Part shown: positions 20,143 through 23,100 of the stretch, one piece after another
Numbering within the stretch: position 1 is the first letter of the stretch
Layout of the letters: every line of letters starts with the position of its first letter
Assembly (NCBI GenBank): GCA_016190065.1
Contig: JACPRI010000421.1
Location: 1 to 41,020, forward strand
Reading direction: 5' to 3'
Source of the DNA: Verrucomicrobiota bacterium
GTDB taxonomy: Bacteria; Verrucomicrobiota; Verrucomicrobiia; Limisphaerales; SIBE01
DNA length: 41,020 nt
Notes under the pieces: generated by a model
The model's input: only the letters and a program-made list of their open reading frames with translations
What the model was told of the DNA's origin: nothing
Databases searched by the model: none
Made by a program: the position numbers and the translations under genes

Positions 20143-23100
20143 ATGACCGGCAAATTCTTAACTCTGGACGCCAACGAGGCCGTTGCCCGCATCGCTTACC
20201 AGCTCAGCGAGGTGGTCGCCATTTACCCGATCACGCCCGCTTCGCCGATGGGAGAATGGGCGGATGCGTGGGCCGCGGCGGGCGCGAAGAACCTCTGGGG
20301 CACGGTCCCATCCGTCGTCGAATTGCAGAGCGAAGGCGGGGCGGCTGCGGCCATTCACGGCGCACTGCAAACCGGTTCGCTCGCCACCACGTTTACCGCG
20401 TCGCAAGGGCTGCTCCTGATGATCCCGAACATGTACAAGATCGCGGGTGAGCTGACGCCGACCGTGTTCCATATCGCCGCGCGGTCGCTGGCCGCGCAAG
20501 CGCTCTCCATCTTCGGGGACCACAGCGACGTGATGGCCGCGCGTGCGACTGGCTGGGCGATGCTCTGCTCGGCTTCGGTTCAGGAAGCTCAAGATTTTGC
20601 CCTCATCGCCCAAGCCGCGACGTTGGAATCGCGGATTCCGTTCCTCCATTTCTTCGACGGCTTTCGGACTTCGCACGAGATTTCCAAGATCGAGGTTCTA
20701 TCCGAAGAGACCCTGCGGGCGATGATTCCGGAGCAGCGCATCCTGGAACATCGGAACCGCGCGCTGACGCCGGAGCGTCCGGTGCTTCGCGGCACGGCGC
20801 AGAATCCCGACGTCTATTTTCAAGCTCGGGAGACGGTGAATCCATTTTATTCGGCTTGTCCCGAGATGGTGCGGCAGCAGATGGCTGAGTTCGCCCGGCT
20901 CACCGGACGGTCGTATTCGCTGTTCGAGTACTTCGGCGCGCCTGACGCCGAACGCGTGCTCGTCATGATGGGATCCGGCTGTGAGGCGGCGCATGAAACC
21001 GTGGAGTTTCTGAACGCGCGTGGGGAAAAAGTCGGCGTGTTGAAGGTGCGCCTTTACCGCCCTTTCGACAACCGCCGGTTCATCGAAGCACTGCCTCGGA
21101 CGGTGCGGGCGCTTGCGGTGCTGGATCGAACCAAGGAACCCGGCAGCGCCGGGGAACCGCTGTATCTCGATTGTGTGAATGCGCTCTATGAAGCGATTTC
21201 TATTGGGTGGGACAAGTTCTCGGAGCAACTTGTGTCCGAACCCACCTCTGCGCCCCTCCCAGGAGGGGAACATGCAGGCGGCGTGAGAACAAAGCTCCCC
21301 TCCCGGGCGGGGCAGGGCGTGGGTTCGGCGGCGGCTCGACCTTCGAATGGATGCCCAGGACTTCCCATTATCGTCGGGGGCCGCTACGGGCTTTCGTCCA
21401 AGGAATTCACTCCCGCAATGGTCAAGGCCGTCTTTGACAATCTGGCCCAACCCGTTCCCAAAAATCATTTCACGGTGGGGATTCGCGACGATGTTGCGGG
21501 CACCAGCCTGGAGGTTGACCCGGCATTTTCAGTCGAGCCGCCGGAAGTTTTTCGCGCCGTTTTCTATGGGCTCGGCTCCGACGGCACGGTGGGGGCGAAC
21601 AAGGATTCGATCAAAATCATCGGCGAAAACACGAGCCATTACGCGCAGGGCTATTTTGTGTACGACTCCAAAAAGTCCGGCGCGATCACGATCTCCCATC
21701 TGCGCTTTGGGCCGAAGCCGATTCGATCCACCTATCTGGTCGGCGCCGCCAACTTCGTGGGTTGCCACTACGCGCAATTCCTCGACCGTCCCGATGTGTC
21801 CGCGACCCTGGCGTCCGGCGGCACGTTGTTGCTGAACACGCCGCATGGCCCGCAGGAAGTTTGGAAACACTTGCCGGCGCCGGTGCAACGGGAGCTGGTT
21901 CGGAAGCGGGCGCGGTTCTACGTCATCAACGCCAGCAAAGTCGCGCGGGACTGCGGGATGGGCGGGCGGATCAACACCGTCATGCAGGTTTGCTTCTTCT
22001 CCGTCTCGGGCGTGCTGTCTCGTGAAGAAGCGATCGAGGCCATCAAGAATTCCATTCGCAAGACTTACGCGAAAAAGGGGCCGGAGATCGTGGCGATGAA
22101 CCTGAAGGCCGTGGACGGCACACTCGCGCACCTGCACGAAGTCGCGGTGCCCGGGGAATCTCAAATTGCAAATTGCAAATTCCAAATTCCCGATTCCTGC
22201 CCACCCCGCCCTGAACCGCAAATCCGGCCGCTGTTTCCCGAAGCTGCGCCCCGATTTGTGCGCGAAGTCATCGGGCCGATTGTCGCAGGCCGCGGCGACG
22301 ACTTGCCGGTCAGCGCTTTGCCCTGTGACGGCACGTTCCCCACGGGCACGGCCCGGTGGGAGAAACGAAATCTCGCGCCGGAGATTCCCGTCTGGGATGC
22401 CGAGATTTGCATCCAATGCGGGAAGTGCGTCTTGGTTTGTCCGCACTCCGTAATCCGAAGCAAGGTCTATGAAGCCACGGCGTTGACGGCTGCGCCGGCG
22501 ACCTTCAAATCGCGCGACGCCCGCCATCCGGACTGGCGCGGACTCAAGTACACGTTGCAGGTCGCTCCGGAGGATTGCACCGGCTGCGCGTTGTGTGTGG
22601 ATGTTTGCCCCGTGCGGAACAAATCTGAGGCACGCCTCAAAGCGATCAACATGCAACCGCAAGCGCCGCGGCGCGAAACCGAACGGCTGAATTGGGATTT
22701 TTTCCTCGGCATCCCGGATCGGGAGCGGCACCGCGTCCACGTGGCCAGCGTGCGCGAACAGCAAATCCTGGCGCCGCTGTTTGAATTCTCCGGCGCTTGC
22801 GCCGGCTGCGGCGAGACCCCGTACTTGCGGCTGCTGTCCGCGCTGTTTGGGGAGCGATTGATCATAGCCAATGCGACCGGCTGCTCGTCCATCTATGGCG
22901 GCAATCTGCCGACCACGCCGTGGACGAAAAACGCCGCGGGCCGCGGTCCGGCGTGGTCCAATTCGCTGTTCGAGGACAACGCCGAGTTCGGATTGGGCTT
23001 TCGAGTTTCGCTCGACAAACAAATTGAGTTTGCGCGCGAGCTACTCGAGCAGCTCTCCTGGACCCTGGGCGAGAGCCTGGTTCAACAAATCCTCGCCAAT

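Follow-up and report, generated by a model that had tools for sequence, protein, structure and literature searches.

The window, which is the whole stretch of 41,020 nucleotides analysed here, contains on its forward strand a nifJ gene (20143-23964) for a pyruvate:ferredoxin (flavodoxin) oxidoreductase (PFOR) of 1273 amino acids, with Pfam matches to POR_N, PFOR_II, POR, EKR, Fer4, and TPP_enzyme_C and PDB matches to 6CIN, 1B0P, and 7PLM. An earlier note made from the sequence had described a palindrome of about 93 bases lying in frame between domains of this protein and coding, without a stop, for a Pro/Gly-rich linker, and folding, open reading frame (ORF), and Pfam analyses confirmed this description. 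The palindrome occupies positions 21236-21328 in the forward orientation, with CCGAACCCACC...GGTGGGTTCGG as its arms and CCCCTCCCAGGAGGGGA / GCTCCCCTCCCGGGCGGGG as an inner pair; its folding energy is -65 kcal/mol for each strand (z about -4.6), a value equaled by none of 200 shuffled sequences. It is stop-free in the nifJ frame, is translated as SEPTSAPLPGGEHAGGVRTKLPSRAGQGVGS, and is bracketed in the protein by the Pfam domains PFOR_II (residues 269-351) and POR (residues 478-658).

The insert in PFOR

The extent of the insertion was judged from the spacing of two motifs, DRTKE and GGRYGL, which are 84 residues apart in this PFOR and 31-51 apart in 102 other PFORs taken from relatives in the order and from 80 loci in many phyla; in 71 of the 102, including that of the genus mate G001, the distance is exactly 39. 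The difference between 84 and 39 residues implies an insert of about 45 codons (135 nt; positions 21226-21360 on the forward strand, residues 362-406, with edges good to a few codons), which is larger than the palindrome itself. Among the 103 PFORs the insert is unique to this nifJ; the earlier note had suggested comparing the gene with those of relatives, and the segment proved to be missing from all 102 of the others, distant taxa included. At the corresponding site, the PFOR of G001 reads LYLDVVTALHEARAGGWSPFKETPVVVGGRYGL, and residues 347 and 354 of the Moorella PFOR structure 6CIN align with residues 349 and 409 of the present protein. The 3' portion of the insert (21329-21360, forward strand) has no detectable likeness to either of the two recurrent tails, A and B, that follow other copies of the element, given that 86/500 and 164/500 shuffled sequences, respectively, matched the tails as well (not significant).

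Residues 1-753 were modeled with AlphaFold from an alignment of 34 sequences; the model was largely confident outside the insert (mean pLDDT 78, pTM 0.83) and placed residues 364-404 in a single disordered loop with pLDDT values of about 32-45, and thus below 50. As modeled, the element gives PFOR a floppy, Pro/Gly-rich loop between domains.

A second foreign-looking stretch was observed in the POR-EKR linker (22162-22190), where a tandem heptamer repeat, (CAAATTG/C)n, encodes SQIANCKFQIPD; at the sensitivity of the pattern searched, this repeat was not a dispersed family. The same linker differs in the genus mates, reading VGQASSLPVLGASLPH in G001 and SQISNLKSEIEKGPSRLEA in G002. The PFOR of this second genus mate was found only as its C-terminal half (locus L095, contig C181, upstream of position 1174), joined in frame to a cytochrome-like ORF, which may reflect a deletion, a fusion, or a misassembly.

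A dispersed repeat family and its copies within genes

The earlier note had also proposed a genome-wide search for the repeat, with copies counted by reading frame and orientation. A 17-base core of the palindrome matched the 5.56-Mb, 68%-complete draft metagenome-assembled genome 171 times at no more than one mismatch, whereas the reversed control pattern gave no match. The repeat, which we term family I, was recovered in 75 distinct copies of full length and at 8 partial sites besides, a census that represents a lower bound, and identity is 78-84% across about 90 bases for the best of the full-length copies. The consensus of 53 copies, nGAACCCACCCCTTCACCCCTCCCAGGAGGGGAACTTGCAACCGGCGCnnCAAACGAAGCTCCCCTCCTGGGAGGGGCnGGGGGTGGGTTCATG, has a variable loop and the ends GAACCCACCCCTTCACCCCTCCCAGGAGGGGAACTTGCAACCGG...GAAGCTCCCCTCCTGGGAGGGGCNGGGGGTGGGTTC, and its start (GAACCCACC) and finish (GGTGGGTTC) form terminal inverted repeats. 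The unit comprises two inverted halves, each with its own stem (CCCCTCC-CA-GGAGGGG) and with about 44 bp between them, and many copies run on into one or the other of the recurrent tails. Single-half copies exist as well. One had been described in the earlier note as a half copy between genes at 10932-10961, and both its truncation and its intergenic position, with a FlgN-like gene on one side and a Crp-like gene on the other, hold, although local alignment to the consensus plus tail (consensus positions 31-129) extends it beyond 30 bases to 10892-10988 on the reverse strand, in the orientation opposite to that of the nifJ copy, and resolves it into the right half of the palindrome followed by the type B tail. 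Under a stricter pattern, for which control matches were again zero, the family was present in seven of 293 genomes of the order, with 88 matches in its own genome, 95 in G001, 50 in G002, 23 in G006, 17 in G005, 11 in G032, and 2 in G060. We rejected the idea of an RNA structure selected across copies, as none of 14 consensus pairs in the stems exhibited compensatory change.

Only about a quarter of the full-length copies are genic: 18 of the 75, comprising the nifJ copy and at least 17 others, are within long ORFs that have Pfam domains, and all are in frame, with the counts resting on ORFs and Pfam matches rather than curated gene calls. Eleven copies besides the one in nifJ have Pfam domains on both sides. 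A polyketide synthase (L099) harbors two of these around its ACP domain (C159:3896-3987 and 4638-4727, 741 bp apart), one between acyltransferase and ACP and the other between ACP and aminotransferase; the others are located between DUF7133 and HEAT in a DUF7133 protein, within the hinge of SMC, between PSCyt2 and PSD1, between ECH and 3HCDH in FadB, within XseA (the exonuclease VII large subunit), between a response regulator and an Hpt domain, between UPF0004 and radical SAM in a MiaB-like protein, within the methyltransferase RsmB, and between an AraC helix-turn-helix and a GyrI-like domain. Domain support on one side only was obtained for three SpeE-like (spermidine synthase) proteins, one P-type ATPase, one HZS_alpha-like protein, and one PSCyt2 host. 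The three SpeE-like hosts (L101, L034, and L015) are different multi-pass proteins in which the copy precedes the synthase domain by a similar distance. Among the junctions checked, no gene was split out of frame by a copy; each candidate for such a split was dismissed, being either the border of different gene families or without a Pfam match.

The genic copies are strongly biased in strand and frame. Fourteen of the 18, a count that takes in nifJ itself, share one strand and one frame and encode EPTPSPLPGGEL...NEAPLLGGAGGGF, a peptide of the EPTPSPLPGGE type, while two of the remaining copies are in frame 2 and two are on the reverse strand. In the nifJ copy the loop has one base fewer than in the consensus, which shifts the second half of the element into a different frame. 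Against a background of 289 open frames in 70 copies, 64 of them in frame 1, 14 of 18 corresponds to p = 8e-7, and the bias persists in the subset with domains on both sides and nifJ excluded (8/11, p = 5e-4). The first forward frame is free of stops in about nine-tenths of the copies and yields a hydrophilic, Pro/Gly-rich peptide, and long ORFs in G001 and G002 contain this peptide frame as well, for instance inside GCV_T-domain and PSD1-type proteins. The earlier note's supposition that the palindrome can become protein is supported by open, in-frame copies in at least 18 ORFs.

Orthologous sites in genus mates

Orthologues in G001 and/or G002 could be read for 13 gene sites, namely nifJ and 12 of the 17 flank pairs queried, and there the genus mates have no insert, a member of the same family, or another insert sequence. 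Seven are empty or nearly so in an orthologue (nifJ, the SpeE-like L101 and L015, the HZS-like L112, the PSCyt2 host L057, RsmB (L102), and XseA (L060)), and filled and empty sites differ by 40-55 codons, with a difference of 45 at both nifJ and L101. At four sites family I is found in a genus mate too: the PSCyt2/PSD1 gene of G001 has a copy in the same frame, the XseA gene of G002 (L281) has a copy interrupted by a second repeat (SAIRNPQSAI) with the frame kept, the L015 site of G002 has a half copy, and the FadB site of G001 has family I in another arrangement. Six sites have a different insert sequence in G002, these being RsmB, the SMC hinge, the third SpeE-like protein, the DUF7133 protein, the MiaB-like protein, and the PSCyt2/PSD1 protein.

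Several inserts of G002 are themselves palindromes of other families. Those in its XseA and DUF7133 proteins belong to one stable palindrome, GGTAGGGCTGCGCTGCCGCGCAGCC..., and those in its RsmB and SpeE-like proteins to another, ...GGCTCGCCGGGACGGACTCGCCCTACC, each pair being made up of unrelated proteins; this gives four cases (L281, L295, L275, and L285) from two unrelated families, at least one of which has GGTAG at one end in the manner of GTAG REPs. Their cores match 39 times and once, respectively, in the genome under study, versus 121 and 366 times in G002. In the shared PSCyt2/PSD1 copy (L286 versus L059), synonymous divergence was far lower in the palindrome (0.12) than in either the tail (0.81) or the flank (0.99), and this one case is suggestive of constraint or homogenization at the level of DNA.

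With orthologous positions in three congeners holding family I, another palindrome, some other insert, a remnant that is nested or truncated, or no insert at all, we see an even chance that certain linkers and loops of housekeeping proteins in this verrucomicrobial lineage are recurrent landing sites taken in turn by unrelated palindrome families, in which case mobile palindromes would be a continuing source of new linker sequence, with one peptide frame favored by selection.

Origin of the copies and comparison with known systems

We consider it very probable that family I consists of non-autonomous, dispersed palindromic repeats whose in-frame insertions into genes survive as disordered loops. 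Built like a REPIN or BIME unit, the element would have spread between genes and occasionally landed in one, moved by a trans-acting enzyme that most plausibly recognized the single-stranded hairpin. Insertions that kept the frame in inter-domain linkers or surface loops would have survived as disordered loops, as the model of PFOR illustrates, because frame 1 of family I is mostly stop-free and its peptide is hydrophilic and Pro/Gly-rich. Insertions of other kinds were presumably purged by purifying selection, selection is the likely cause of the frame bias, and the host proteins are presumably made and functional. Mobility, the other part of the earlier note's proposal, is a deduction from the dispersal of the copies and the empty sites in genus mates, as we found neither a target-site duplication nor, at 32 loci, a linked Y1/RAYT gene nor, in the intervals scanned, a transposase between copies.

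The candidates for the enzyme were weighed against these findings. The two inverted halves with an internal stem in each, the single-half copies, the commonness of Y1_Tnp genes in this family of genomes, and the presence in these genomes of other palindrome families with GGTAG at one end, like GTAG REPs, are all features expected if family I were a REPIN moved by a RAYT, with the Y1 tyrosine transposase TnpA-REP acting on its two inverted REPs as hairpins of single-stranded DNA. We nevertheless hold this possible but doubtful, since the GTAG tag does not occur in the consensus of 53 copies and the element lay within about 1.5 kb of none of 32 Y1_Tnp loci scanned, a subset of the Y1_Tnp matches in its own genome and eight relatives; its own genome has only two Y1 matches, both on contigs without the element. 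Derivation from a deleted insertion sequence, as a MITE whose termini GAACCCACC.../...GGTGGGTTC would be used by the transposase of a full-length relative, agrees with the terminal inverted repeats, the length of about 90-135 nt, and the clean empty sites in relatives. It appears unlikely, as direct repeats in the flanks were no longer than in shuffled flank pairs (the true insertion edges being uncertain), and the three intervals scanned between neighboring copies in relatives encode no transposase but ordinary genes (BamB-like, NrfD-like, and alanine racemase), a content that also led us to reject a composite transposon.

Two further explanations would deprive the insert of its place in the protein or in the genome. 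The great stability of the hairpin on either strand could point to an mRNA segment that removes itself or is bypassed by the ribosome and so leaves no trace in the mature protein; yet none of the 18 gene copies contains a stop or breaks the frame, and most use one of at least five available frames, which neither removal nor bypass would need, and Rfam contains no family that matches, so that this is very improbable. It is scarcely credible that a short repeat mis-joined unrelated sequence within nifJ, even in a draft assembly in which several contigs terminate inside a copy, as the sequence on either side encodes its half of a single PFOR, with both halves in the same frame, and orthologous copies recur in independently assembled species (the PSCyt2/PSD1 gene in G001 and xseA in G002).

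Protein-coding palindromes are best known in Rickettsia. The present data extend this process to a lineage that is not rickettsial and probably lives freely, with dozens of copies and with empty and filled orthologous sites within one genus, and make the question of how mobile DNA becomes protein testable, in that frame and strand bias, the reuse of sites, and the ages of insertions can be tallied from genome to genome. The inserts of PFOR, XseA, RsmB, and SMC are simple targets for deletion, and caution is warranted in these proteomes, where Pro/Gly-rich "linkers" and disagreements among orthologues can be repeats.

The Rickettsia palindromic elements RPE-1 to RPE-10 (Ogata et al. 2000, 2002) are inserted into genes of unrelated function with the frame kept, and the peptides they encode are conserved (PMC10969869); in modeled proteins their inserts are solvent-exposed, and at some sites the RPE group varies from species to species (PMC3767692). 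Family I resembles these palindromes of ~100-150 bp, many of which are in-frame genic insertions that share an encoded peptide, in its 75 full copies of a ~90 bp palindrome, its genic inserts of ~135 nt in 18 ORFs, and its peptide in 14 of the 18, but it belongs to another phylum and its consensus is without the CGTC end tag of R. conorii RPE sequences (PMC3733652), a distinction drawn from the published descriptions. GTAG REPs have been reported inside genes of the verrucomicrobium Opitutus terrae and of others, often as inverted dimers encoding 20-30 amino acids and with two insertions in some genes (Di Nocera et al. 2013, PMC3733652); family I shares with them the palindromes in frame in genes of Verrucomicrobia and differs in the absence of the tag and of RAYT linkage, while the G002 families at some family I sites (GGTAGGGC...) do resemble GTAG REPs. 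The REPIN/RAYT system (Bertels and Rainey 2011, PMC3116915) likewise replicates as a unit of two inverted REP-like halves and has single halves too, and family I departs from it in its substantial genic presence and in that no linked RAYT was found at the loci scanned. Bacterial MITEs (PMC10969869) are, like family I, short, non-coding alone, bounded by terminal inverted repeats, and sometimes fused in frame; here, by comparison, neither a target-site duplication nor, in the three intervals between copies, a parent insertion sequence was found. A literature search of limited reach found no published description of family I. It matches RPEs and intragenic REPs in kind, and is a new family in a new lineage rather than a new principle, with a frame bias and a turnover of sites that are unusually clear.
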